From Paraprevotella xylaniphila YIT 11841 (GTDB taxonomy: Bacteria; Bacteroidota; Bacteroidia; Bacteroidales; Bacteroidaceae): DNA of 64,000 nucleotides. The notes under the pieces are model-generated. The model had not been told where the DNA came from. It ran no database searches and saw only the letters and a program-made list of their open reading frames with translations. The translations under genes were made by a program, and so were the position numbers. Positions 30,197 through 44,324 of this stretch are shown piece by piece (the first letter of the stretch is position 1; every line of letters begins with the position of its first letter). The DNA lies in the NCBI RefSeq assembly GCF_000205165.1, contig NZ_GL883812.1:62001-126000 (forward strand), given 5' to 3'.

Positions 30197-30208
30197 AGTT
30201 GCGGCTCC
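30181..30208 (+). terminator. Hairpin at the end of the undecaprenyl-phosphate operon
   Basis: GGAGCCGCA (30181-30189) and TGCGGCTCC (30200-30208) form a 9-bp stem overlapping the stop codon. There is no T-run, so it is only a candidate terminator. Confidence 0.45.
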
Positions 30209-30281
30209 ATCCGATGTCATGGCTTCCTCAAGGACCTTTGCAACGATTCGTCAACTCCTTAAAATATTGCTTCATATACCT

Positions 30282-31115
30282 TTATTGATACAAGGCTTTG
30301 CCTAAATCTTCCAACCCCGTTTCTCCGGGCAGACCGGGATAGGCTTGTTTCATGGCATCTACGAAAGCCTGTGCCGTCTTGTTTTCCTCAAGCTGCTTTT
30401 TCGTCTTTTTCAGGTAAGCAATCTTGAACTCTACCGCATCGCGTGTGGCTGCACCGCCATGTCCGCCGATGAACAGCGTCGCACCTGAAGCCAACGAGTT
30501 TTCGGCCTCTGTGATTTCAGCGTCAATGGCAGCCGGGGAAGACACTTGTAAATGGCTGATATGTGCTTTTGCCGGAGTCCAATGAGTGTAATACGCTTTG
30601 TTTCCTATCAGAATGCTTGCACCTGGGAAATCCGATGCGGCACCGTGACGGAACTCGAAAGTTACTCCTGCCCAAGTCTTTGTTGCGCCGAAAGCCACTT
30701 CCGTAACCTTGCCTGTGGGCATGTCTGTCAGGGCATCCCCGAACGCCTGTGCAAAACCTTTCATCATGTCTCCGTACACTGCGCCTTTCGTGAATTCGGG
30801 CATACCTTGGGCCATTACCACGTCATGCTTTCCTGTTCCTCCCACATGATAGTCCGTGATGCGTTTCTCCACGGGCTTTTCCAACTTGGAAAGATAAGTG
30901 CCAAATTCAGCCACATTGTCCTTGAACAGTGGTTGTTCCATGGTCACGAGGGCATCTTTGCCCTCAACGATGTAACTTGCATCACCCAACGTGTCGTTGG
31001 TGTAATATACATGCAGTTTGTAATTGCCGAGGTCATGTACCTCGAAACGTCCTTTGCTCTGTGCCATAGCTATAATTGTTAAAAAATTGAATAAAATGAA
31101 TAGTACTTTTTTCAT
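30282..31115 (-). CDS. Secreted metallo-beta-lactamase-fold protein
   Basis: A 277-residue protein with a signal peptide (VLFILFNFLTIIAMAQ). The fold resembles MBL hydrolases (VYYTNDTLGDASYIVEGKDA, then LEKPVEKRITDYHVGGTG), but the canonical HxHxDH metal motif is replaced by DYHVGGTGKHD; later His residues (FRHGAASDF, THWTPAKAHISHL, GGHGGA) could still bind metal. The substrate is unknown and catalysis is uncertain. Divergent from an HxlR regulator with palindromes between them, so it is probably a target of that regulator. The -7 box on the minus strand is at 31187-31194. Confidence 0.75.
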   Translation of the reverse strand: MKKVLFILFNFLTIIAMAQSKGRFEVHDLGNYKLHVYYTNDTLGDASYIVEGKDALVTMEQPLFKDNVAEFGTYLSKLEKPVEKRITDYHVGGTGKHDVVMAQGMPEFTKGAVYGDMMKGFAQAFGDALTDMPTGKVTEVAFGATKTWAGVTFEFRHGAASDFPGASILIGNKAYYTHWTPAKAHISHLQVSSPAAIDAEITEAENSLASGATLFIGGHGGAATRDAVEFKIAYLKKTKKQLEENKTAQAFVDAMKQAYPGLPGETGLEDLGKALYQ

Positions 31116-31154
31116 TGCTTTTGATTTTTAATGCGTGTCTGATTGTTTATTACT

Positions 31155-31256
31155 TACTTATAAGTATTCTCATTCCTTTTATGCTGCAAAATTAGAAAGA
31201 GATTATGGGCTATGCAAGTAGGTTCTTGTCCATCAGTTACTTACGTGAAAGTAACT
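31155..31256. promoter_or_regulatory. Divergent control region with two palindromes
   Basis: TACTTATAAGTA (31155-31166) is a perfect 12-bp palindrome. A perfect inverted repeat AGTTACTT/AAGTAACT with a 6-nt spacer spans 31235-31256. Both share ACTTA-type half sites. The MBL promoter lies between them (minus-strand TAATTTTG 31187-31194, CTTG 31215-31218, 20-nt spacer). Likely HxlR operators. Confidence 0.55.
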
Positions 31257-31306
31257 ATTGTTGGATATGAGACACTTGCCGATAAAGAATATTTCTAAAA
31301 AAGTTT

Positions 31307-31338
31307 CTTGCCGCTTGAAGGGAATTTGATTACTTTTG
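31307..31338 (+). promoter_or_regulatory. Promoter of the HxlR gene
   Basis: CTTG at 31307-31310 and TACTTTTG at 31331-31338, 20-nt spacer; the start codon follows 26 nt later. Confidence 0.55.
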
Positions 31339-31364
31339 TAGAGTAAACAGAAATACATTATATT

Positions 31365-31739
31365 ATGTATAGGACAACGATAGAAGATGCCGTGTTTCCG
31401 AACTGTCCAATACGGAATATTTTGGCCAGACTCTGCGACAAATGGTCTCTTTTGGTCATATATACGTTAGACAAGGCAGGTAAGGAAGCCGTACGTTTCA
31501 AAGAGTTGCAGCGTGAAATCCCCGACATATCACAAAAGATGCTAACGGTTACCTTGAGGACATTGGAAGATGACGGCTATGTCACCCGTACAGTGTATCC
31601 CGAAGTTCCTCCAAGGGTAGAGTATGCGCTGACTGCACGGGCATACACTTTGCTTCCGCATGTCAATGCGCTGATAGCATGGGCTTTGGAAAATAGGGAT
31701 GCGATTATGGAAGACCGGAGAAAAGCCTGTAAAAAATGA
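31365..31739 (+). CDS. HxlR-family transcriptional regulator
   Basis: A 124-residue winged-helix protein with the family core: a cysteine before the first helix (FPNCPIRNILARLCDKWSLL), the recognition region (FKELQREIPDISQKMLTVTL) and wing (DDGYVTRTVYPEVPPRVEYAL). HxlR proteins often sense redox or electrophile stress through the conserved cysteine (Cys14 here). Divergent from the MBL-fold gene; probably regulates it and itself through the palindromes at 31155-31256. Confidence 0.92.
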   Translation: MYRTTIEDAVFPNCPIRNILARLCDKWSLLVIYTLDKAGKEAVRFKELQREIPDISQKMLTVTLRTLEDDGYVTRTVYPEVPPRVEYALTARAYTLLPHVNALIAWALENRDAIMEDRRKACKK

Positions 31740-32108
31740 GGCATGCCTATATGCGGAAATAGGGTAGGACGCACTTGCGGTGTCCGGTCCTTTCGACGGA
31801 TTAGGTAGAAACGGCAATGGGTGGAACTGTCGATTTTTTCTTAAAAATTCTGTTAGAATTTGCCGAATAGCTAAAATGAGTGAATTATGAGTTTCTCACC
31901 TCAATAGAGGTAATGTTTTGGCAATAGTTCTAAATTCTGTATTATGTATAAGTTTGCTTGTCAAACAACTCTTTGTTTTTCACTGCAACAAAAATGCTGC
32001 TGATAATTTTTTGCAAGTGTACAATTTAATCTTGAATTACCCCAGAATGATATGCTAAATAATAATAAAAGTGTAGCAAAAACAATGTGATTTTAAAAAA
32101 ATATTTCA
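31740..32108. other. AT-rich gene-free stretch at the left edge of the restriction island
   Basis: No gene is supported. AT content rises sharply here and stays high to about 38.1 kb, unlike both flanks. No tRNA, integrase or obvious attachment repeat was seen. Confidence 0.4.
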
Positions 32109-32128
32109 TTATTTTGCGTTAAACGCAA
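32109..32128 (+). promoter_or_regulatory. Controller operator overlapping a promoter
   Basis: TTGCGTT-A-AACGCAA at 32114-32128 is a perfect palindrome. It overlaps a near-consensus -7 box (TTATTTTG, 32109-32116), 12 nt before the controller gene. This layout fits autorepression by the small XRE protein. Confidence 0.55.
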
Positions 32129-32140
32129 TAATAAAGATAA

Positions 32141-32362
32141 ATGATGAAAGATATAAATCGTATAAAAGTCGTGTTAGTGGAGAAGAAACGGACAAGCAAA
32201 TGGTTGTCCGAGCAATTAGGAAAAGATCCTGCAACAATCTCAAAATGGTGCACTAATACGTCACAACCAGATTTAGTAACATTGACCAAGGTAGCTGTTC
32301 TATTGGATGTTGATGTTCGTCAGCTTATCAATAAAACGAAAGGTACTAACACTGATGATTAA
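32141..32362 (+). CDS. XRE-type controller protein of the restriction-modification system
   Basis: A 73-residue helix-turn-helix protein (KRTSKWLSEQLGKDPATISK, then LDVDVRQLINK) that begins MMKDIN; the second ATG (32144) is possible. Small XRE proteins ahead of methylase genes act as controllers delaying endonuclease expression. 28 nt upstream of the methylase gene in the same direction. Confidence 0.85.
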   Translation: MMKDINRIKVVLVEKKRTSKWLSEQLGKDPATISKWCTNTSQPDLVTLTKVAVLLDVDVRQLINKTKGTNTDD

Positions 32363-32390
32363 AAATCATTAGTTCAAAAAATGATTAATA

Positions 32391-33362
32391 ATGAATACAA
32401 AAGCAAAACCATTCATCAAATGGGTTGGTGGTAAAGGGCAACTCATTGAACAACTAGAGGCAAAACTTCCAGCTGACTTTGATAATTGGGATAATGCGAC
32501 ATACATAGAGCCATTCGTTGGCGGTGGTGCTATGTTGTTTTACATGCTGCAACAGCATCCAAATATCAAACGTGCCGTAATCAATGACATCAATAGTGAC
32601 TTGATTACTTGTTACAAAACGGTGCGTGACAATGTGGAAGAGTTGATTCCTGCGTTGCAGAAAATTCAAGCGCAATATTATGCTTTGCAAGACATGGAAG
32701 CGAAACGTGAGATGTTTATGGTTGTACGCCAACGCTACAATGAGAAGAATCTTGACCCGATAGAGAATACGGCAAAATTCTTTTTTCTAAACCGTACTTG
32801 CTTCAATGGATTGTATCGTGTAAACAAAAAGGGCTTATTCAATGTTCCTTGTGGAAAGTATATGCAACCACAGATTTGTGACGAAGATACGCTTAGAGCA
32901 GACAGCGAGTTATTAAAAAGAGTGGAAATCTTAGAAGGTGATTTTGAGAATACTTTGCTTTGTGCGCAAGGTAAGGTATTATTTTATTTTGATCCTCCTT
33001 ACCGTCCACTTAGTGGCACTTCAAGTTTTAATGATTATACAAAAGAAGCGTTCAATGATGATTCACAAGTCAGGTTGAAGGAGTTCTGTGACAAAGTGGT
33101 AGCCGAGGGGCATAGCTTTATGCTGAGCAATTCAGATTGCAAAGGAAAGAATGAAGCAGATAATTTCTTCGATGTCTTATATGCAGATTATTATATAGAC
33201 AGAGTTATGGCTTCTCGTAATGTGAATGCAAACGGAGCTAAGCGAGGAAAGATATCTGAACTGTTGGTTCATAGTTACCGCAACACAAAAGATTGGCAAA
33301 TGAACGATATAAGCAACCACAAGCCACAACGTGTGGCTATAAAACAGAAAGCTTATGCTTAA
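32391..33362 (+). CDS. DpnM/Dam-like N6-adenine DNA methyltransferase (D12 class)
   Basis: A 323-residue alpha-class adenine methylase. The SAM motif is FIKWVGGKGQ at the N-terminus with IEPFVGGGAM, and the catalytic motif is FYFDPPYRPL. Other family segments: NRTCFNGLYRVNKKGLFNVP and SNSDC. Close to M1.DpnII/Dam, so the target is expected to be GATC (inference from family and from the neighbouring DpnII-type endonucleases). Overlaps the first endonuclease gene by 8 nt. Confidence 0.93.
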   Translation: MNTKAKPFIKWVGGKGQLIEQLEAKLPADFDNWDNATYIEPFVGGGAMLFYMLQQHPNIKRAVINDINSDLITCYKTVRDNVEELIPALQKIQAQYYALQDMEAKREMFMVVRQRYNEKNLDPIENTAKFFFLNRTCFNGLYRVNKKGLFNVPCGKYMQPQICDEDTLRADSELLKRVEILEGDFENTLLCAQGKVLFYFDPPYRPLSGTSSFNDYTKEAFNDDSQVRLKEFCDKVVAEGHSFMLSNSDCKGKNEADNFFDVLYADYYIDRVMASRNVNANGAKRGKISELLVHSYRNTKDWQMNDISNHKPQRVAIKQKAYA

Positions 33363-34176
33363 AGATTTCGATAAATTCATGTCTCAACTCAAAGAGACAA
33401 ACCAAACGTTGGACTTCTTCTGTGACTTTGAAAAAATCTCACAGAATGTGGAGGATATAAAGTTGAGCCTGTGTATGCTCAACAGTCTCATTGGGGCATC
33501 CGACTTACGTAAAAGTATTGAAACAATATGGAACAGGGATAAGAATGCCTTTTCCGTTATGGATATATTGGTGGCAGTTCGTACTCGTGACAAGAAAAAG
33601 ATACTTGATTCTGTTGGGAACTGCGTACCATTGGAAGGTATGTTCAACTCTGTAGATTCTGTTATGGCATTCTTGACAGAAACAGGACTTGGTGATGTCC
33701 TTCAAAGTCAGAAAATTAAGAATCTTGTAGATTATGTTTTTGGCATTGAAACAGGATTGGATACAAACGCAAGAAAGAACAGAAGCGGACACGTTATGGA
33801 GAATATGGTAGCCAACATTCTCACGAATGCTGGTGTTCCTTTCAGACAAGAAGTATATTCGAGAGAATGGTCTGCAATTACAGATGTGTTGGGAGATGAT
33901 GAAAAGCGTTTTGACTTCGTTGTTGAAACTCCATCAAAAGTTTATCTGATTGAAGTCAACTTTTATAGTGGAGGTGGCTCAAAGCTAAATGAGGTTGCAC
34001 GTTCATATTCTGATATTGCACCGAAAATAAACTCCGTTGAGGGTTTTGAATTTGTTTGGATTACAGATGGTATAGGTTGGAAATCTGCAAAGAACAAATT
34101 GCAAGAGGCATACGGAATTATCCCAAGTGTGTATAATCTAACATCTGTTCAAGATTTCATAAATAATATAAGATAG
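33355..34176 (+). CDS. DpnII-family restriction endonuclease, copy 1
   Basis: A 273-residue DpnII/MboI-type endonuclease. The nuclease core is near residues 180-225: KRFDFVVETPSKVYLIEVNF followed by GGGSKLNEVARSY, giving the acidic residues D and E with an E-V-N in place of the usual E-x-K. Other family blocks: IKNLVDYVFGIETGLDTNAR, FEFVWITDGIGWKSAKNKL. Expected to cut unmethylated GATC. It overlaps the methylase gene by 8 nt and is followed 3 nt later by a paralogue, with which it shares roughly half of aligned residues by eye. Confidence 0.92.
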   Translation: MLKDFDKFMSQLKETNQTLDFFCDFEKISQNVEDIKLSLCMLNSLIGASDLRKSIETIWNRDKNAFSVMDILVAVRTRDKKKILDSVGNCVPLEGMFNSVDSVMAFLTETGLGDVLQSQKIKNLVDYVFGIETGLDTNARKNRSGHVMENMVANILTNAGVPFRQEVYSREWSAITDVLGDDEKRFDFVVETPSKVYLIEVNFYSGGGSKLNEVARSYSDIAPKINSVEGFEFVWITDGIGWKSAKNKLQEAYGIIPSVYNLTSVQDFINNIR

Positions 34177-34178
34177 TT

Positions 34179-35021
34179 ATGACACAAAAGGAAAATTTCT
34201 CTGTATTCTTTGATAATATAACAGAAATAAAAATAGGTCTTAATTATTATACGGACTTCAAAAAGGTCATGAACAATATCAAGACCATATCCTTGCGACT
34301 TACCCAATTGAACTATTTGGTAGGGCAAAAAGATATGCGTAAGGCGGTAGAAGAGCTTTGGGAAGAGAACCCTAAAGCTTTCTCTGTTATGGGAATACTT
34401 GTTGCTGTCAGAAAAAAGCAAAATAAAAAAGCATGGGGGCGTGACGGAAGTGAGCGTCTCGTATATAACTACTTTGATAGTGTTGACCATATAATGGAGT
34501 TTATCGAAGACTCAGGATTGCTCACAATTTTACAAGATGAACACATTAAAAATCTTGTTGACTATGTTTTTGGCGTAGAAACAGGTCTTGATACTCATGG
34601 ACGAAAAAATCGTATAGGAGAAATCATGGCTTCCAGAATTGCCCAACAATTTGATGAGGCAAATATATCTTATGAACGTGAAGTTCAATCAAAGATTTTT
34701 CCTGCCATAAAATCAGTATTAGGAAAGGATTCTAAAAGATTTGATTTTGTTATTTCATGTCCAGGCAAAAAATATTTGGTCGAAGTAAACTATTATGGAA
34801 CGCAAGGCTCAAAAGTTACAGAAATTCCACGTTCGTATATGGATGTTGCCAAGAAAATAAATATAGTAGAAGGTTTTGAGTTCGTTTGGATTACAGATGG
34901 AATTGGTTGGAAAAAAGCCAAAGAACAACTGAATGAGGCTTATGATGAAATTCCAAATGTATATAATCTAAGCACATTGCAAGGTTTTATAAATAAGATT
35001 CTTCAAAACGCCAAGAACTAA
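34179..35021 (+). CDS. DpnII-family restriction endonuclease, copy 2
   Basis: A 280-residue paralogue of the preceding gene. The same blocks are conserved: KAFSVMGILVAVRKKQNKKA, IKNLVDYVFGVETGLDTHGR, KRFDFVISCPGKKYLVEVNY and GSKVTEIPRSY, FEFVWITDGIGWKKAKEQL. The D...E-V-N catalytic set is intact, so it is probably active or recently so. A second complete endonuclease in one DpnII operon is unusual: described systems have one endonuclease and two methylases. The pair is too divergent at the N-terminus and in the loop regions to be a recent duplication. Confidence 0.9.
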   Translation: MTQKENFSVFFDNITEIKIGLNYYTDFKKVMNNIKTISLRLTQLNYLVGQKDMRKAVEELWEENPKAFSVMGILVAVRKKQNKKAWGRDGSERLVYNYFDSVDHIMEFIEDSGLLTILQDEHIKNLVDYVFGVETGLDTHGRKNRIGEIMASRIAQQFDEANISYEREVQSKIFPAIKSVLGKDSKRFDFVISCPGKKYLVEVNYYGTQGSKVTEIPRSYMDVAKKINIVEGFEFVWITDGIGWKKAKEQLNEAYDEIPNVYNLSTLQGFINKILQNAKN

Positions 35022-35040
35022 GGCTATACGAAACTTTCAA

Positions 35041-35910
35041 ATGGTACAATCATACTATAAATCATCCAACAATGATTTCGCTCTTGCTCATGGCGACTGT
35101 TTCAAACTTCTCAAAGATTTTGACTTCAAGTTTGACATGATATTTGCCGACCCTCCTTACTTTCTATCCAATGGTGGAATATCGTTGCAGAGAGGTAAGG
35201 TCGTGTGCGTAGATAAAGGTGATTGGGACAAAGGCAAGTCGCAAGAGGATATGTTGGCATTCAACATGGAATGGCTACGTCTGTGTCGTGACAAGTTGAA
35301 AGACAATGGTACTATATGGATTAGTGGAACTTATCACAACATCTTTTCTGTGGCTAATTGTCTGACGGAACTTGGCTATAAAATTCTGAATGTGGTTACT
35401 TGGCAGAAGACCAATCCTCCTGCCAACATCTCATGTCGTTTCTTCACCTATTCCACGGAGTTTGTAATTTGGGCAAGAAAGATGCAGAAAATTCCGCACA
35501 AGTTTAACTATGACTTGATGAAAGAACTGAATGATGGTAAGCAAATGACAGATGTATGGCGAATGCCTGCTATCGGTCGTTGGGAAAAGACTTGTGGCAA
35601 GCATCCGACACAAAAGCCTTTGCGCTTGCTCGTCCGGATGATTCTTGCATCAACCAATCAAGGCGATTGGATTCTTGACCCATTTAGCGGAAGTTCCACG
35701 ACAGGTATTGCCGCCAACTTATGTGGACGACGATTTGCAGGACTTGAACAAGAGGAAGATTTTTGTAAGTTGAGCAAAGCAAGACGTGAAGAAATAGAAA
35801 GTCTTGAAAACTATGCCAATCTACTAAATCACATAGAAGACTTGCACAGGTTGAAAGATTATTCTATGGCAAATGAAGATATTAGTGATTACAACCAAAT
35901 GCCATTTTAG
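35041..35910 (+). CDS. DpnA-like beta-class DNA adenine methyltransferase
   Basis: A 289-residue methylase with catalytic motif IV first (FADPPYFLSNGGISLQRGKV, DPPY) and SAM motif I near the C-terminus (DPFSGSSTTGIAANLCGRRF), the beta-class order. Strongly like DpnA (M2.DpnII), which can methylate GATC in single-stranded DNA. Also WISGTYHNIFSVANCL, TWQKTNPPANISCRFFTYST, KHPTQKP. 19 nt after endonuclease copy 2. The last intact gene of the operon. Confidence 0.93.
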   Translation: MVQSYYKSSNNDFALAHGDCFKLLKDFDFKFDMIFADPPYFLSNGGISLQRGKVVCVDKGDWDKGKSQEDMLAFNMEWLRLCRDKLKDNGTIWISGTYHNIFSVANCLTELGYKILNVVTWQKTNPPANISCRFFTYSTEFVIWARKMQKIPHKFNYDLMKELNDGKQMTDVWRMPAIGRWEKTCGKHPTQKPLRLLVRMILASTNQGDWILDPFSGSSTTGIAANLCGRRFAGLEQEEDFCKLSKARREEIESLENYANLLNHIEDLHRLKDYSMANEDISDYNQMPF

Positions 35911-35950
35911 TTTGCTAATACATTTTATGAATTAATTTTTAGATAGGTTT

Positions 35951-37683
35951 ATGACAAAACTTAATATTGACCAGAAGACAGTAACTCGGACTTCTTGATA
36001 CCAGACTATCAGCGTCCTTATGCTTGGGGTGATGATGAGTGCAAGACACTTTGGGAAGACCTGTTTAGCTTTTCTTTCCCTAGTGACAACACAGATCAAT
36101 TCAATGACAACGATGAGTACTTTCTCGGTCCAATGGTCACATTTAAGAATGATGACAGAAAAAAAGGAAATTATAGATGGACAGCAGCGTCTTACAACAT
36201 TGATGTTGCTACTTCGTGCTTTCTATAATAAACTGGGGCATATACAAGATACTCGTTCAGTAAAAATGAAAGAGGGTATAGAAAAGTGCATTTGGCGTGC
36301 CAACGGATTCGGTGAATACAATAAGGATGACTTGAAAATAGACTCAGAGGTTGCCACAGACAATGACAAAGATGAGTTTCTTGATATTCTTAAAAATGGT
36401 GATGCAGCAGGAAAGCATAGCAAATATGCCTTGAATTTTCGGTACTTTGAAAAAGGAATTGACATATTTCTTTCTCACTACCCAAGTTATTTTGCGTATT
36501 TTCCACTTCGTATTCTGAACAACTGCGTACTTCTTCCAATCGAAGCAGAATCGCAAGATACTGCATTGCGTATTTTCTCTACACTCAATGATAGAGGTAA
36601 GCCACTTTCTGATGCAGACATCTTTAAGGCTCAGTTCTACAAATACTATTCTTCACTTGGCAAGAAAGATGATTTCATAGCCATTTGGAAAAACTTGGAA
36701 GTGATTGCGTCTGAAGTATTTCATCCAATCAGTGGGACACCCTTGGACGAACTCTTTACACGCTACATGTACTATGAGCGTGCATTGCAGGGAAATAAGT
36801 CATCAACGACAGAATCGTTGCGTAAGTTCTACGAGAAAAACAATTATGAACTGTTCAAGAAAGAGTCAACACTTGAAAACCTTGTCCGTTTGGCTCATTT
36901 TTGGCAAGATGTAAACAATCAAGATGAGGAACGGTTCTCCATCCGCATCCTCAAATGTTTGTTTGTGCTAAACTATGCGCCAAATGGTATGTGGACTTAC
37001 TTTGTTTCGGTTTTCTTCATGCATTTCCATGATGATAACGATGAACTCGAAGAGGAAAATTTCTTCCACTTCTTGAATCGCATTATAGGATTCATTTGGG
37101 CATATGCAATCACGAATCCTGGTGTTAACTCCTTGCGTACTCCAGTGTTTGCGGAGATGGTGAATATTGTAAACGGTACAGACGTAACATTCAACAATTT
37201 CCTGTTTGACGAGACAAGGTTCAGAGCGCAATTCTCCAATTATGTGTTCTCCAACAATCGAGCTATCACTAAATCAATGATAACTTGGTGGGCATACACC
37301 TTTGCCAACCAACCATTGCTTTCTTTGGAGAATACTTTTGATATAGAGCATATATTCCCACGTAATCGCCAACAGAAGGAAAACAGCTTAAAGAATCCAT
37401 ATTCATTAGAAATGCTTGGAAACAAATCTTTGTTGGAACGCCGTATAAATATACGTGCATCTGATTATTGTTTTGTTGATAAAACAAAATACTACATGGG
37501 GGCCAAACTGCCAAAGGACAGAAAGAAGGCACAAACATTGCCGAACTAAAAATGTAAGCCAATGAACTTACAGATTATACAGAACAAAACATAACAGAAC
37601 GTTCAAAATACATACTTGATGGCTTTGTTGAATATCTAAAAACAAATGCCTTAATAAAGGGTTGCCAAGCTACAAACGCTTAA
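35951..37683 (+). pseudogene. DUF262/DUF1524 (GmrSD-like) protein, broken in at least three places
   Basis: A start (MTKLNIDQKTV, from 35951) runs into a stop within 16 codons. A second frame from about 35987 carries the DUF262 motif IPDYQRPYAWGDDE. At an A7 run (about 36159-36165) the frame changes again; with six A it would continue as KKEIIDGQQRLTTLMLLLRA. The main part runs to 37549 with a DUF1524 HNH-type motif FDIEHIFPRNRQ. The true tail (NELTDYTEQNITERSKYILD and onward) is in another frame to 37683, with a stop between. DUF262-DUF1524 proteins are type IV modification-dependent nucleases. Decayed beyond a single error, so a genuine pseudogene. It follows the DpnII operon by 40 nt. Confidence 0.85.
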
Positions 37684-37822
37684 AAAAGTGTTTGCTTGGA
37701 TGATATTCATCGCTTATGTTTATGCTACAAAGCAAGACATGGGCGATGAATGTTGCACATATGTTTCTACTTCTCCATGACTTTTTCTTTTTTGTCAAAG
37801 TGTCAAAGCCGAATATGGTATG
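37684..37822. other. Gene-free spacer with short inverted repeats
   Basis: ATTCATCGC (37705-37713) and GCGATGAAT (37743-37751) form an inverted repeat, with TTTGCTT/AAGCAA words around it. No gene is supported. Confidence 0.35.
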
Positions 37823-37860
37823 GGCAAAAAATAGGGGACGCCTTTTGAAAAGTGTCCCCT
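37823..37860 (-). terminator. Intrinsic terminator of the candidate RNA
   Basis: On the minus strand AGGGGAC (37860-37854) pairs with GTCCCCT (37839-37833), with an inner TTTT/AAAA helix, followed by TATTTTTTG. Confidence 0.8.
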
Positions 37861-38053
37861 TTATGGTAAAAGCCGCACCGATGATGTGATGAAAACTCCG
37901 AGCTAACAAGATTTGAGCGCCCGTCACCTTTGTAATCCACCGGCAATTAAGCTACCCGAAGGCGTGGCCCGCCATTAGTGAGCGAAGCATTCTCGGTTTT
38001 CTGAAATAAATTGATGAGTATCCCAATCTAACCGATGCGGCTCCTTTTTCTAC
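37823..38053 (-). ncRNA. Candidate structured non-coding RNA, about 225 nt
   Basis: On the minus strand a strong phylum-type promoter (38058-38089) is followed by a 12-bp closing stem: AGCCGCATCGGT (38031-38042) pairs, with two G-U, to ATCGGTGCGGCT (37871-37882). Inside, AAAACCGAG (37992-38000) pairs with CTCGGAGTTTT (37892-37902) around a 2-nt bulge, and a GC-rich hairpin GGCG/CGCC lies near 37962-37974. An intrinsic terminator closes the unit (37833-37860, then T6). Any open frame here is short and would cross the hairpins and the terminator. The elongated, end-paired shape recalls 6S-like RNAs or an element-borne regulator, but no known family was recognised. Confidence 0.6.
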
Positions 38054-38057
38054 ATGA

Positions 38058-38089
38058 CAAAGGTAAGTCATTGTACCCAAAAAAGCAAA
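38058..38089 (-). promoter_or_regulatory. Promoter of the candidate RNA
   Basis: Minus-strand TTTG (38089-38086) and TACCTTTG (38065-38058) with a 20-nt spacer: a full match to the Bacteroidota consensus, with no coding gene directly downstream. Confidence 0.75.
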
Positions 38090-38167: not shown

Positions 38168-41100
38168 TTATTTGAAATGTTCCAGAAGTTTTTCCAGTTC
38201 GGTGGTAGAAATGATTTCCACACTGCCGTGTTTCACTTCCGTGGGGTTCCGGATTTCGTCATCGGATATAGGATACCATTTGTGTTGGGACGGGTCGGTA
38301 CAGCCCGTATAGCTTACTCCCCGGTCGCCATTGAACTTGTCGAAATAGAGGAACCACCCTTTCCCGCCTATCACCGGAAAGACTTCCGGACCTTCGACTT
38401 CTATGTAGCGTGATGGCAGTAGCGGAGTGGAACCTTCGAAGCGCTGCACGCACGGGTCGAGGCTTTTCGATGTGGCACAACGGATGGTCTTCTCTCCGTT
38501 CCGTTCGTCCTTATAGTAGGCATAGTATGTGCCCCCTTCTTTCAGGATGGTCATGTCGATGGCTGTGAAGCCCGGGTCGAAGTAGACAGCCGGAGTGGAG
38601 AAGGTGAGCCAGTCTTTCGTGGTACAGTAATGATGTACCTGCCGGTCGCCGATGCGGGAGGACCAATAGAGGTAGAACGTGCCGGTCTGTTCGTCGTAAG
38701 TGAATTCCGGTGCCCAGGCGTTGGGCGATACGGGGCCGCCGTCGTGCCCGTCCATCAGCATGATTTTCCCGTCGTCGGTACGTGTACCGCCGTTGGCGGC
38801 TGTCCAGTGGATGAGGTCGTCGGACTCCCAGTGGAACAGGGCGGGATGGTCCCATCCCCAGGTATGTACGAGATGGAATTTGGTTTTACCATTGTGCGTG
38901 ACACGGTGCAAATAAGGGTCGCGCAGCCAGACGCCGTCGTCGTAAGCATTGAAAACGGGGCGGCTGCCGTTGATGTCCGTCCATGTCTTTCCGTCGCAGC
39001 TGTAGGCATAGAACAAATGTTGTGCGCTGGCTTTGAAATAAGACATGAGGTACACGCTGTCGGTGGCCTTGACCTCCGGCATGGCTTTCCGTCCGGGCAT
39101 GGGGGCGACGGTATATTCCTCTACAGGGATGTATTCTGTGTAGCGCAGGCCCGCGTCGATGTATTGTCCTCCGTGGCCTTGGTGGGCATGGATGGCCATG
39201 ACATTGTCGCTGTTCGGTTTCAGTGTGGCCAACGCTTCCGGGGCGATGGGTTGCGCCACGTAGCGTGTGGTATATCCTTTGACTTCGTATGCTTTGACTC
39301 CGTTGAGATAGACTTCGCAGTCGTCATCTTGGTAGAGCCATAGTTGCAAGGCATTGATTTGTTCCTGCGAAAGGTTGCCGATGGAGAAGTGGCGGCGTAT
39401 GTAGATGTCGGATGTGTTCCATGCGCTCCGCACGAAAGTGTTGGGCGGGCTACCGGCACCGAAACCGGCTTCTCCTTTGTCCCACTGGCTGTCGTCGAAC
39501 GATGGGGCGTACCAATCGCCGGACGGCGTAACGGTGGTATAACTCCACGCCTCGTCGGACGATGTATCCGCAGCGCCGACCACTACTGTCTGGCGTGAGC
39601 GGTTGTGTATGGTGCGCAGGATCTCTTCGCGTACGGAAGCCCGTTCCTCCGGGGCTATCTTGAACACCTTGCGGTCGTAAGTAAGCAGTCCGTTCAGTTC
39701 TTGTTCCACGTCGCTCGTCTGCGTATATACGGATGCCCAAAGGCCTTGTTCCTGTAAACCTTGCAAGGCGACGGTATAGGCGTTGAACCTTTCGGCCAAA
39801 GCTTTGCTGTCCGGCACGGAAGTGTATTCCATGTCGTTGCCTTTCCACAGCTGCCCGTCCACTTTGAGGGTGATGCCCCCGTATTCTCCGCATACGGCTA
39901 CCCGTTCGTTGAGCGGATTGCTTTGGAGCGAAGGCACGGGATAGCTGTGTTGGTCGATGATGTCGCCCACCTCGAAGTCCACCCATCCGCTTGCTGCGTC
40001 GATTAGTCGTGTGCTATCGGCGTTGCGGATGGCTTCCACACCCTGGCGTGTGTGGACGTCGTTGCCTGAAGCGTATTGTCCCCATCCCTCGTTGTAGGCT
40101 ACCCATACGACGATGCAAGGATGGTTTTTCAGCGTGTTGACGACGCGTGTACACTCATCGTAGAAGTTCTGCCGGATGAAGTCCTGGCTGCCGATGCTGC
40201 CGTTTTCGTCGAAGTTCTTGCTAGGCATGTCCTGCCATACGAGCATACCCATTTTGTCACAGTAATAATACCAGCGTGCAGGTTCTACCTTGATATGCTT
40301 GCGTATCATGTTCATGCCCAACGATTGTACGGCTTCTATGTCGTAGCGCATCCCTTCGTCTGAAGGAGGAGTAAGCAGGCCGTCCGGCCACCATCCTTGG
40401 TCGAGCACACCGAATTGGTACAACGGTTTGTTGTTCAATAGCATGCAGGGATGTCCGTCCACCATACCCCGGCTGATTTTACGCATGCCGAAGTATCCTT
40501 TCACCCTGTCGGTCTGCATGCCGTCATGATGCAGGCTGATGTCCAGGTCGTAAAGATGGGGGGAGCCGGGCGACCACAGTTTGGCTTCCGGTATGCTGAG
40601 CGTGTGGGGCGCGTTGACGGACATTCCGGTGAGTTTGGCTACCGTTTTTTGACCATCTTTGACGATGATGTCGGCCGTGGCGGACGTGCAGTCCGACGTG
40701 ATTGTGAGCGAAACGGTGCCTGCATCGATGTCTGACGTCACATCGTAGCGGCTGATATGCGCAGGGGAGACCGGTTCAATCCATACAGTCTGCCAGATGC
40801 CCGTTACCGGGGTGTAGAAGCATCCGCCCGGTTTGAGGGTTTGCTTGCCCAACGGTTGCCCGCCGTGGGTCGTGGGGTCTGTGACGGTTACTTGTATTTC
40901 CTGTTCCTCCCCGTCGCGGAGCAACTTTGTGATGTCCATGGAGAACGGGTCGTTGCCGCCGCTGTGGCTCCCGGCTTTTTGTCCGTTGACGTACACGGCA
41001 CATTTCCAGTCCACCGCCCCGAAATGGAGCAGGATGTGCCGGCCTTTATAGGCTTTGGGAAGTTTGAACGTACGTTGGTATACGAAAGTAGACCGGGCGT

Positions 41101-41431
41101 TTTCTTCGAAATTCGTATCCATGATGCCGGACAGGGCCGATTCTATGGGAAAGGGAACCAATATCTTTTGGTTTAACTCCGTAGGCGGCAGGTTGTAACT
41201 GAGGTCTGCCGACTTCTTCTTGCAGTAATCCCAAGGGCCGTTGAGCGACATCCACTCGCTGCGTTCCATTTGTGGACGCGGATATTCGGTCCATACTTTG
41301 TCGGGGTTGATTTTTTCACCCCACTCGCTCATGATGGGAGCTTTTTTCCGAACCCAATCCGCAGCCGTCAGGTTGGCAGCCGCCGTCAAGGCAAGGACGG
41401 TGAATAGGTCTTTCAATAGGTTGTGTTTCAT
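38168..41431 (-). CDS. Secreted GH2 glycosidase fused to a GH43-type module
   Basis: A 1087-residue protein with a signal peptide (FTVLALTAAANLTAA). The GH2 part (about 45-600) has a sugar-binding jelly roll, an Ig-like domain and a TIM barrel with acid/base Glu448 (VAYNEGWGQ) and nucleophile Glu516 (CGEYGGI). A second jelly-roll domain follows (about 625-780; SFDDSQWDKGEAGFG, LQLWLYQDDDCEVYLNG). A GH43-like five-bladed propeller fills 791-1060, and its triad appears intact: Asp838 (WLRDPYLH), Asp959 (TAIDMTILKE), Glu1013 (EVEGPEVFPV). Two different activities on one chain suggest attack on a branched hemicellulose or pectin side chain; the exact linkage is unknown. A -7 box is at 41459-41466. 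Confidence 0.88.
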   Translation of the reverse strand: MKHNLLKDLFTVLALTAAANLTAADWVRKKAPIMSEWGEKINPDKVWTEYPRPQMERSEWMSLNGPWDYCKKKSADLSYNLPPTELNQKILVPFPIESALSGIMDTNFEENARSTFVYQRTFKLPKAYKGRHILLHFGAVDWKCAVYVNGQKAGSHSGGNDPFSMDITKLLRDGEEQEIQVTVTDPTTHGGQPLGKQTLKPGGCFYTPVTGIWQTVWIEPVSPAHISRYDVTSDIDAGTVSLTITSDCTSATADIIVKDGQKTVAKLTGMSVNAPHTLSIPEAKLWSPGSPHLYDLDISLHHDGMQTDRVKGYFGMRKISRGMVDGHPCMLLNNKPLYQFGVLDQGWWPDGLLTPPSDEGMRYDIEAVQSLGMNMIRKHIKVEPARWYYYCDKMGMLVWQDMPSKNFDENGSIGSQDFIRQNFYDECTRVVNTLKNHPCIVVWVAYNEGWGQYASGNDVHTRQGVEAIRNADSTRLIDAASGWVDFEVGDIIDQHSYPVPSLQSNPLNERVAVCGEYGGITLKVDGQLWKGNDMEYTSVPDSKALAERFNAYTVALQGLQEQGLWASVYTQTSDVEQELNGLLTYDRKVFKIAPEERASVREEILRTIHNRSRQTVVVGAADTSSDEAWSYTTVTPSGDWYAPSFDDSQWDKGEAGFGAGSPPNTFVRSAWNTSDIYIRRHFSIGNLSQEQINALQLWLYQDDDCEVYLNGVKAYEVKGYTTRYVAQPIAPEALATLKPNSDNVMAIHAHQGHGGQYIDAGLRYTEYIPVEEYTVAPMPGRKAMPEVKATDSVYLMSYFKASAQHLFYAYSCDGKTWTDINGSRPVFNAYDDGVWLRDPYLHRVTHNGKTKFHLVHTWGWDHPALFHWESDDLIHWTAANGGTRTDDGKIMLMDGHDGGPVSPNAWAPEFTYDEQTGTFYLYWSSRIGDRQVHHYCTTKDWLTFSTPAVYFDPGFTAIDMTILKEGGTYYAYYKDERNGEKTIRCATSKSLDPCVQRFEGSTPLLPSRYIEVEGPEVFPVIGGKGWFLYFDKFNGDRGVSYTGCTDPSQHKWYPISDDEIRNPTEVKHGSVEIISTTELEKLLEHFK

Positions 41432-41636: not shown

Positions 41637-44324
41637 ATGAAACTGCATTTCTCGATAGAATATCTGACGCATTGGGGGGAAGACGTCAGGGTGTCCTTGA
41701 CGTTGGTCGATGCAAAGGGACGTACCCAGACACAGACTTATCCGTTGGAAACCCGTGATGGCCACAGATGGACGGGAGAAGTGCTCATTACTGACGGACG
41801 CATCCGGTCTTTTTATTATCATTATAGTATATATAAGGAAGGCCGTAAGTTCCGGACGGAATGGGGCTTCATACCTCGCCATTTCAGGGTCGACGTTACC
41901 CAAACTTATTTGTTCCGGGACAACTGGCAGGATGTCCCCCTCTTGTCCCACCTTTATACATCCGCTTTTACGCAGTGTGTCCGTCCGCATATGGCCGAGA
42001 CGGAAGAATTGCCGTATTTCAACAGTACATTGATGTTGAAGGTGAGTGCTCCTCAGCTTGAGGAAGGGCAGGCGTTGGCTCTCCTTGGGAACCAACCGGC
42101 ACTGGGGGAGTGGAATCCGAATTTTGCGTTCCGCATGAAAGAGACGGGGCTGTACGAGTGGAGTGTGACCTTGAGTGCGGCCGGTGTCACTTTTCCCTTG
42201 GAATATAAATATGTCGTCATTGATGCGAAGACGGGCGATTTCGTGGCGTGGGAAGGCGGAGAAAACCGTGTGCTGCCGATAAGCGGGGTGGCAAAAGACG
42301 AAGTGGCCGTTATCTCGGATCCTCCGTTGCGGATTCGGGGAAACCGTTGGAAAGCGGCCGGTGTGGTCATACCCGTTTTTTCATTGCGCAGCGAAGGCAG
42401 TTGCGGGGTGGGGGATTTCGGCGACCTGAAAACCATGGTCGATTGGACGGTGCTTACCGGGATGCGCGTCATCCAGCTGTTGCCCGTGTACGATACGACT
42501 ATCCATAAGAATTGGATGGACTCTTATCCATATAATAGTATTTCCATTTATGCGCTCCATCCCCAGTATGTCGACTTGCGCCAGTTGCCGAAGCTTGCGG
42601 ACGAAAAGGAAATGGCGGAATACGAAGAGCGTCGGGCTGCTTTGAATGCTTTACCCCAAGTGGACTACGAGGCGGTAAGTGCCTTGAAGCAAGAGTACCT
42701 GCATGCCGTGTTCCGTCGTGAGGGTAAAGAAATGCTGTCCTCCGGACGCTATACGGCTTTTTTCAAGCGTAACGAAGATTGGTTGGTGCCCTATGCGGCG
42801 TTTTGCGTGTTGCGCGACCGTTTCGGGACGGCCGATTTCCACGCATGGCCGGAGTATGCGGAATACAGGAGGGAAGACATACGTGCCTTTTGCCGTCCGT
42901 CCGCTCCGGCCTATGAGGAAGTTTCTTACTACTATTATGTACAGTTCTGCTTGCATGAACAGCTGTTGGCGGCTTCCGATTATGCTCGTGCGAAGGGAAT
43001 TATCCTGAAGGGGGACATCCCCATCGGCATCAGTCGCAACAGTGTGGAGGCTTGGGTGGAGCCGTACTACTTTAACTTGGACGGTCAGGCCGGTGCGCCG
43101 CCCGATGATTTTTCGGTCAACGGCCAGAACTGGGGCTTTCCTACTTATAATTGGGAAGTCATGCTCGAGGACGGTTGCAGTTGGTGGGTGCGTCGTTTCC
43201 GTAAGATGGCCGAGTATTTCAATGCCTATCGTATCGACCACGTGTTGGGATTCTTCCGGATATGGGAGATTCCGTCCGATTCGGTACATGGTTTATTGGG
43301 GCATTTCTCTCCTTCGCTTCCGATGAGTGTGGAAGAGATTGAGAGCTATGGGCTTCGGTTCCGGAAAAATTATTTTACCCATCCCAATATCAGTGATTGG
43401 GTATTGGATAAACTGTTCGGTGAACGTGCCGAGGAAGTGAAGGCCGTTTATCTGGATGCTTTGGGCATGGACTGGTATGCGATGAAGCCCGAGTATGACA
43501 CTCAACGCAAGGTGGAAGCGGCTTTTGCCGGGAAGACTTCGCCCGAAGATGTGGCTTTGCGCGAGGGGTTATACGCGCTCATCAGCAATGTGCTTTTCAT
43601 TCCCGACCCGAAGCAGCCGGACAAATATCATCCGCGTATTTCGGCTCGGTGCGATTATCTGTACCAGACATTGAGCGAGGAAGAGAAACGGGCTTTCGAT
43701 GCCTTATACGAAGATTATTACTACCATCGGCACAACGAGTTCTGGTACGGGCAGGCCATGCGTAAACTGCCCGTTTTGGTGGAAGCGACTCAAATGTTGG
43801 TGTGTGCCGAAGATTTGGGCATGGTGCCGGCATGTGTCCCATGGGTGATGGATGACTTGCGCATCCTGACGCTTGAGATTCAAACCATGCCCAAGAAGTT
43901 CGGGCTGAAGTTCGGACGGTTGGAGGAAAATCCTTACCGGAGTGTGGCCACTATATTTACCCATGATATGCCCACCCTTCGCGGATGGTGGGAAGAGGAT
44001 GCCGTGCGCACGCAACAATATTTCAACGAGGTGTTGCAGAAAGACGGGGAGGCTCCGGCTTCCATACCCGGTTGGTTGTGCGAAGAAGTGGTGGCACGTC
44101 ATCTTTATTCTCCTTCGATGCTCTGTCTGATTTCGTGGCAGGACTGGATGTCGATAGACGAACGGTTGCGTTATCCCGATGCGGATTTTGAACGTATTAA
44201 TGTACCTTCCAATCCGCGAAACTACTGGCATTACCGTATGCACCTGACGATAGAGGAGTTGATGGGGTGCGACGACTTGAACCGGAAAATCCGTATGCTG
44301 ATTACGCATAGCGGAAGAGATTGA
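41637..44324 (+). CDS. malQ: 4-alpha-glucanotransferase with N-terminal starch-binding domains (GH77)
   Basis: An 895-residue DPE2-type disproportionating enzyme. Two CBM20-like domains come first (about 1-115 and 130-245; LALLGNQPALGEWNP is a CBM20 signature in the second), then a GH77 barrel (from about 265; PVFSLRSEGSCGVGDFGDLK, the nucleophile region YRIDHVLGFFRIWE, the acid/base region CAEDLGMVPACV and late FTHDMPTLRGWW). It transfers maltosyl or glucosyl units between alpha-1,4-glucans; no signal peptide, so cytoplasmic. Monocistronic or followed by the ABC-F gene 29 nt later. Confidence 0.95.
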   Translation: MKLHFSIEYLTHWGEDVRVSLTLVDAKGRTQTQTYPLETRDGHRWTGEVLITDGRIRSFYYHYSIYKEGRKFRTEWGFIPRHFRVDVTQTYLFRDNWQDVPLLSHLYTSAFTQCVRPHMAETEELPYFNSTLMLKVSAPQLEEGQALALLGNQPALGEWNPNFAFRMKETGLYEWSVTLSAAGVTFPLEYKYVVIDAKTGDFVAWEGGENRVLPISGVAKDEVAVISDPPLRIRGNRWKAAGVVIPVFSLRSEGSCGVGDFGDLKTMVDWTVLTGMRVIQLLPVYDTTIHKNWMDSYPYNSISIYALHPQYVDLRQLPKLADEKEMAEYEERRAALNALPQVDYEAVSALKQEYLHAVFRREGKEMLSSGRYTAFFKRNEDWLVPYAAFCVLRDRFGTADFHAWPEYAEYRREDIRAFCRPSAPAYEEVSYYYYVQFCLHEQLLAASDYARAKGIILKGDIPIGISRNSVEAWVEPYYFNLDGQAGAPPDDFSVNGQNWGFPTYNWEVMLEDGCSWWVRRFRKMAEYFNAYRIDHVLGFFRIWEIPSDSVHGLLGHFSPSLPMSVEEIESYGLRFRKNYFTHPNISDWVLDKLFGERAEEVKAVYLDALGMDWYAMKPEYDTQRKVEAAFAGKTSPEDVALREGLYALISNVLFIPDPKQPDKYHPRISARCDYLYQTLSEEEKRAFDALYEDYYYHRHNEFWYGQAMRKLPVLVEATQMLVCAEDLGMVPACVPWVMDDLRILTLEIQTMPKKFGLKFGRLEENPYRSVATIFTHDMPTLRGWWEEDAVRTQQYFNEVLQKDGEAPASIPGWLCEEVVARHLYSPSMLCLISWQDWMSIDERLRYPDADFERINVPSNPRNYWHYRMHLTIEELMGCDDLNRKIRMLITHSGRD

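Follow-up and report, generated by a model that had tools for sequence, protein, structure and literature searches.

6S RNA is widespread among bacteria and blocks RNA polymerase reversibly. In the type represented by ssrS of E. coli, the two ends of the RNA are paired into a rod, and the gene has its own promoter and is present in a single copy. The successive steps by which 6S RNAs sequester and release the polymerase are established knowledge for the class, as is the consensus of the housekeeping promoter of Bacteroidota, TTTG/TAnnTTTG. For this phylum, the motif descriptions of Weinberg et al. (2010; PMC2864571) list both Bacteroidales-1 and 6S-Flavo, and describe the latter as fulfilling the role of a validated class. 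The account of dRNA-seq results in Ryan et al. (2020; PMC7366714) includes a 6S RNA of B. thetaiotaomicron together with two classes of pRNAs; the locus that makes them is presumably the Bacteroidales-1 locus of that organism. A reannotation of P. gingivalis gives, in its RNA entries, one Bacteroidales-1 RNA per strain (PMC5771137).

The locus described here lies on the minus strand of the window, the whole 64-kb stretch of DNA that was analysed, and is an ordinary member of an already catalogued RNA family. Very probably it is a chromosomal, single-copy Bacteroidales 6S RNA gene, filed in Rfam as RF01693, "Bacteroidales-1 (6S-Bacteroidales RNA suggested)". The RF01693 covariance model matches the RNA body with 160.2 bits, compared with a curated cut-off of 60, and with an E-value of 1.7e-27 in a search space of 64 kb, which is beyond chance. 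The match covers the full length of the model (positions 1-179 of 179) with all conserved sequence blocks present, and it is the sole match in the whole window at curated Rfam thresholds. An earlier note, made from the letters alone, had described an RNA gene with its own promoter, end stem and terminator and had suggested, as one identity to be checked with Rfam covariance models, a 6S-like RNA of the Bacteroidales-1 type. All three elements are in place (Table 1), and the full-length Rfam match, far over the curated cut-off, confirms the suggestion.

Table 1 Features of the RNA locus, in window positions
Feature	Position	Strand	Basis or remark
-33 element TTTG, Bacteroidota housekeeping promoter	38086-38089	-	sequence; 20-nt spacer to -7 box
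-7 element TACCTTTG	38058-38065	-	sequence
Conserved RNA body, RF01693	37865-38042	-	178 nt; covariance-model match and own model R1
Closing stem, 5' strand	38031-38042	-	outer 7 pairs conserved and covarying
AUACUC, facing GAGUUU	38016-38021	-	alignment of 56 homologues
Inner 9-bp helix with 2-nt bulge, as proposed in the earlier note	37992-38000 with 37892-37902	-	can form in window sequence
Central arm with conserved GGCGGGCCAC and GGUGGAUUACAAAG	37919-37988	-	covarying part of Rfam structure
GAGUUU, partner of 38016-38021	37893-37898	-	alignment of 56 homologues
Closing stem, 3' strand	37871-37882	-	partner of 38031-38042
Intrinsic terminator (hairpin 37860-37833 and T6 37831-37826)	37826-37860	-	fold -14.7 kcal/mol

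The RNA is present in one copy in its own genome. Among 36 further members of the family that were examined, 34 have one copy each; the two genomes with no match are both only 70% complete. Among the named loci, the closest RNA is that of an uncultured Paraprevotella (L115; 87%), which makes Paraprevotella the probable host genus. Our own covariance model, R1, was built from 28 Bacteroidales-1 sequences only, with the closing stem added. It scores 151.3 bits on the RNA body, a value that is not independent because the window sequence is among its 28 building sequences, and it has no other match in the window at E-values up to 10. The general 6S model, RF00013, gave no match at E-values up to 10 in a search of the whole genome and is likewise absent from the matches at E ≤ 10 of the local stretch. 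Thus, sequence alone gives no tie to the 6S family of Proteobacteria and Firmicutes.

The outer 7 bp of the stem that joins the two ends of the RNA are strongly supported by covariation. Because the Rfam consensus leaves both ends unpaired, this stem is a feature absent from the library structure. As the earlier note described it, the stem has 12 bp, and it is exact in the window, including two G-U pairs (38035-37878 and 38032-37881), but among homologues it is conserved as about seven outer pairs. Our collection comprised 57 strong homologues, 56 over the cut-off in the search of the order and one from the search of the phylum. From these, 28 were hand-picked for diversity for the alignment A1 and the model R1, and 56 were kept in the covariation test and in the terminator count, L078 being left out of both because it is cut by a contig end. 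In A1, 99.0% of the cells of the outer 7 bp are paired and six of the seven pairs change on both sides, with 32 double-change cells compared with an average of 7.6 in shuffles. When the partner strand is shifted by 1 to 3 columns, only 18-48% of the cells are paired. In the number of pair types, 11 versus 10.9 in shuffles, the stem does not exceed chance. Under a tree-based null for the 56 sequences, computed from 60 simulated alignments with a script of our own that resembles R-scape but is not R-scape itself, a helix-wise E below 0.01 was obtained for pairs 1, 3, 4, 6, 7 and 12 of the 12, and pairs 8 to 11 are formed in just 44-66% of the sequences with letters there. Over all column pairs, the sole pair with E < 0.05 lies in the central arm; the significance given here for the closing stem rests on the helix-restricted E-values and the shuffle test.

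The window copy has a letter on either side for 22 of the Rfam pairs, and 10 of these reach a helix-wise E below 0.05 across the 56 homologues, which confirms the central arm except for its two small inner hairpins, for which covariation in the same set gives no support. A helix between AUACUC and GAGUUU is plausible, not proven: pairing is kept in 53-56 of the 56 homologues at five of its six positions, which are almost invariant, the sixth falls in a gap column, and there is one compensatory change, from C-G to U-A. The window copy has a U-U mismatch in this helix (38020-37894).

The inner 9-bp helix with its 2-nt bulge, which the earlier note had proposed together with the end stem, can form in the window sequence, but the covariation found in the end stem is missing from it among homologues, and we regard it as unsupported, not disproved. 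In the register originally proposed, no pair stands out over the 56 rows, and only 3 and 2 of them, respectively, retain the pairs 37994-37900 and 37995-37899. Three rows of A1, that of the window included, are shifted by one base at this helix. The remaining rows share a register in which a nearly invariant CC/GG is followed by pairs that break without compensation; in A1, 82.1% of the cells in this majority register are paired, compared with 82.9% in shuffles, and there are no double changes. A local 3' hairpin, UCC/GGA, competes with the inner helix and, as seen by eye, is lengthened to CCU/AGG or CCUGU/ACAGG in several homologues; statistical support was not found for this hairpin either. 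The presumed central bulge as a whole is made of nearly invariant nucleotides and allows several alternative local pairings, with no decisive covariation because the nucleotides there hardly vary. On the 5' side of the presumed bulge, positions 38014 and 38022 (minus strand) form a covarying pair with E = 9 over all pairs, G-U in 39 and U-A in 9 of the 56 homologues, which hints that a local 5' hairpin could form in competition with the open bulge.

The RNA is homologous to 6S-Flavo (RF01685). On the local stretch the RF01685 model itself scores 20.3 bits (cut-off 85; E = 3.2), at the position and on the strand of the RF01693 match. Across 395 genomes of the phylum, RF01693 matched 12 at E-values up to 0.001, among them six weak matches from outside the order. 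RF01685 also matches all six of these loci, with position and strand agreeing, and scores three of them above its own cut-off. At E-values up to 1, RF01693 matched 6 of 18 RF01685 loci, six that had been chosen by RF01693 beforehand, and the other 12 had no match. With R1, all 25 of the unseen RF01685-matched loci (14 above and 11 below the RF01685 cut-off) were found in place and on the right strand, over model positions 1-180; L046, which occupies the same place as L012, was excluded from this set. The E-values range from 8.5e-11 to 7e-4 and are rough, owing to a short calibration, and the 25 tests are not independent, since many of the loci come from one genus. The only other R1 match in the 78,100 bases, both strands included, was on the opposite strand of L043 (E = 0.61). 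Because R1 with its end stem finds 25 of 25 loci, Bacteroidales-1 and 6S-Flavo are probably one RNA, and there is good reason to regard RF01693 and RF01685 as one continuous, phylum-wide 6S family whose covarying end stem is missing from both Rfam structures.

Within the order, R1 matched 94 of 295 genomes, compared with 79 of 295 for RF01693 at the same nominal E-value, with 16 genomes gained and one lost. Seven of the 16 gains have E-values between 3.5e-4 and 1e-3, and since R1 combines the stem with more sequences, the gain is not creditable to the stem alone. In the 201 order genomes with no R1 match, the RNA may have diverged, may have been lost to the stricter filters that apply to searches of more than 40 genomes, or may be absent.

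The same homology bears on the alternative that survives best, in which Bacteroidales-1 is a structured, trans-acting RNA with a function other than that of 6S, for example in base-pairing regulation. Many invariant nucleotides lie outside helices, RF00013 gives no match, and the motif descriptions of Weinberg et al. (PMC2864571) leave the cis-regulatory and switch status open, all of which would suit such an RNA. However, the homology to 6S-Flavo extends over the full model length, closing stem included, and the 6S RNA with pRNAs in the account of Ryan et al. (PMC7366714) comes from the same order, so we consider a non-6S function improbable.

The surroundings of the RNA differ from genome to genome. 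In the window, the end of the terminator is about 50 bp from the edge of a downstream restriction-modification island that encodes a D12-class adenine methyltransferase, two tandem DpnII endonucleases, an N6/N4 methylase, a GmrSD-like gene and an HxlR regulator; a 277-aa ORF at its left end (30282-31115, minus strand) has no Pfam match at E = 0.001. This proximity would be expected of a regulatory RNA that the island had brought with it or left behind, an origin that the earlier note had offered as its second possibility. However, a close relative, G697, has an identical RNA (178 of 178 bases) and lacks window positions 30201-37775 (7.6 kb), with 590 bp standing there instead. The alignment with G697 runs up to window position 37776 and again from 30200, with 92-93% identity in both flanks. 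Since the identical RNA occurs there without the island, and since the RNA is found in 34 of 36 other family members, it belongs to the core genes, and the island came to lie beside it later. The RNA is flanked by varying genes across the 16 loci compared, and it gave no match in a search of a phage collection or, with one exact core pattern, in viral contigs. The chance that the RNA belongs to the island is accordingly negligible, and that suggestion is rejected.

Relatives of the RNA with 75-79% identity also occur in four plasmid-labelled records (H1-H4), all predicted to be non-mobilizable. One of them is a 1.77-Mb Prevotella replicon, so these records may be secondary chromosomes or mislabelled pieces of chromosomes.

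Upstream, on the same strand, is a gene for a glycoside hydrolase of family 2 (GH2; 38168-41431, minus strand, 1087 aa), and beyond it a GH77 gene (41637-44324) in the opposite orientation. Beyond about residue 500, in its C-terminal half, the GH2 protein gave no Pfam match at E = 0.001. Between the GH2 gene and the RNA stands the TTTG-20-TACCTTTG promoter that the earlier note had read on the minus strand, from which transcription is expected to start at about 38050-38057. Of 57 homologues, 52 have a TAnnTTTG box within the 70 nt searched upstream, lying 4 to 61 nt away, compared with 4.8% of shuffled upstream regions; this score covers the TAnnTTTG box alone and not the -33 element. The intrinsic terminator with its T6 was also read correctly in the earlier note, and a terminator-like hairpin with a T-run follows the RNA in 35 of 56 homologues versus 1 of 56 shuffles. 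A simple consensus terminator scanner found none here, where 1.2 would be expected in shuffles.

In five diverged loci that fall below the RF01693 threshold (L091, L093, L095, L096 and L097), the 3' end resembles a stem strand (for example AATGCGG or GTGCGGG) and is followed almost immediately by a T-run, and the closing stem of these loci may therefore double as the terminator.

That the RNA is instead a 3' UTR or the leader of a neighbouring gene, as might be suggested by the GH2 gene, which is encoded on the same strand and ends about 125 nt before the RNA body, can hardly be entertained given the conserved promoter box of the RNA, the hairpin and short T-run that the GH2 gene itself has between 38160 and 38117 (read from the sequence), and the presence of a GH2 gene near the RNA in just 2 of the 16 relatives examined (L243 and L246). 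Nor does the stretch encode a credible protein, in agreement with the earlier note. Two stops interrupt frame 1 of the conserved block, and the one ORF of at least 60 aa that touches the RNA stretch (37670-37927, minus strand) starts inside the block and extends past the terminator; on the plus strand there is no ORF of at least 60 aa touching the stretch. The folding-energy z-score is -2.96 for the whole transcript and only -1.77 for the conserved 178 nt, so that folding energy alone is weak evidence and the case for the gene is a comparative one.

As a 6S RNA, the transcript would be expected to fold as a rod of roughly 180-230 nt with closed ends, and its central open region would mimic a melted promoter. 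Under nutrient-poor conditions or in stationary phase, the RNA would bind the housekeeping RNA polymerase holoenzyme and transcription would be blocked. Once nucleotides were available again, the polymerase would make a short pRNA with the 5' side of the central bulge as template, and this synthesis would cause the RNA to refold and the polymerase to be freed. The predicted pRNA is antisense to about 38009-38028, i.e., (AAUU)GAUGAGUAUCCCAAUC. By analogy with the class, we infer that the window RNA binds the polymerase and directs pRNA synthesis in this way.

With this assignment, the unknown RNA of the earlier note is identified, with high confidence, as a 6S RNA gene that has no link to the adjacent island. 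The RNA class itself was already known, and the addition made here is a modest one, namely a closing stem common to RF01693 and RF01685 that is shown in neither structure. One shared closing stem could allow annotators to link or merge the two Rfam families and would help to find 6S RNA in more genomes of Bacteroidota.

Compared with the described systems, the window RNA is unlike RF00013, the E. coli ssrS type, in that the RF00013 covariance model gives no match to it, but resembles that type in its length, its rod with paired ends, its own promoter and its single copy and, presumably, in its mechanism. From 6S-Flavo it differs in that it scores below the RF01685 cut-off and in that the 108-position RF01685 model leaves the ends unpaired; the ACUCA, CUUGU and GGAGUUU blocks are common to both, as is, through model R1, the closing stem. 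RF01693 is the family to which the RNA belongs, and whereas its Rfam structure has unpaired ends, the homologues analysed here have a covarying closing stem.
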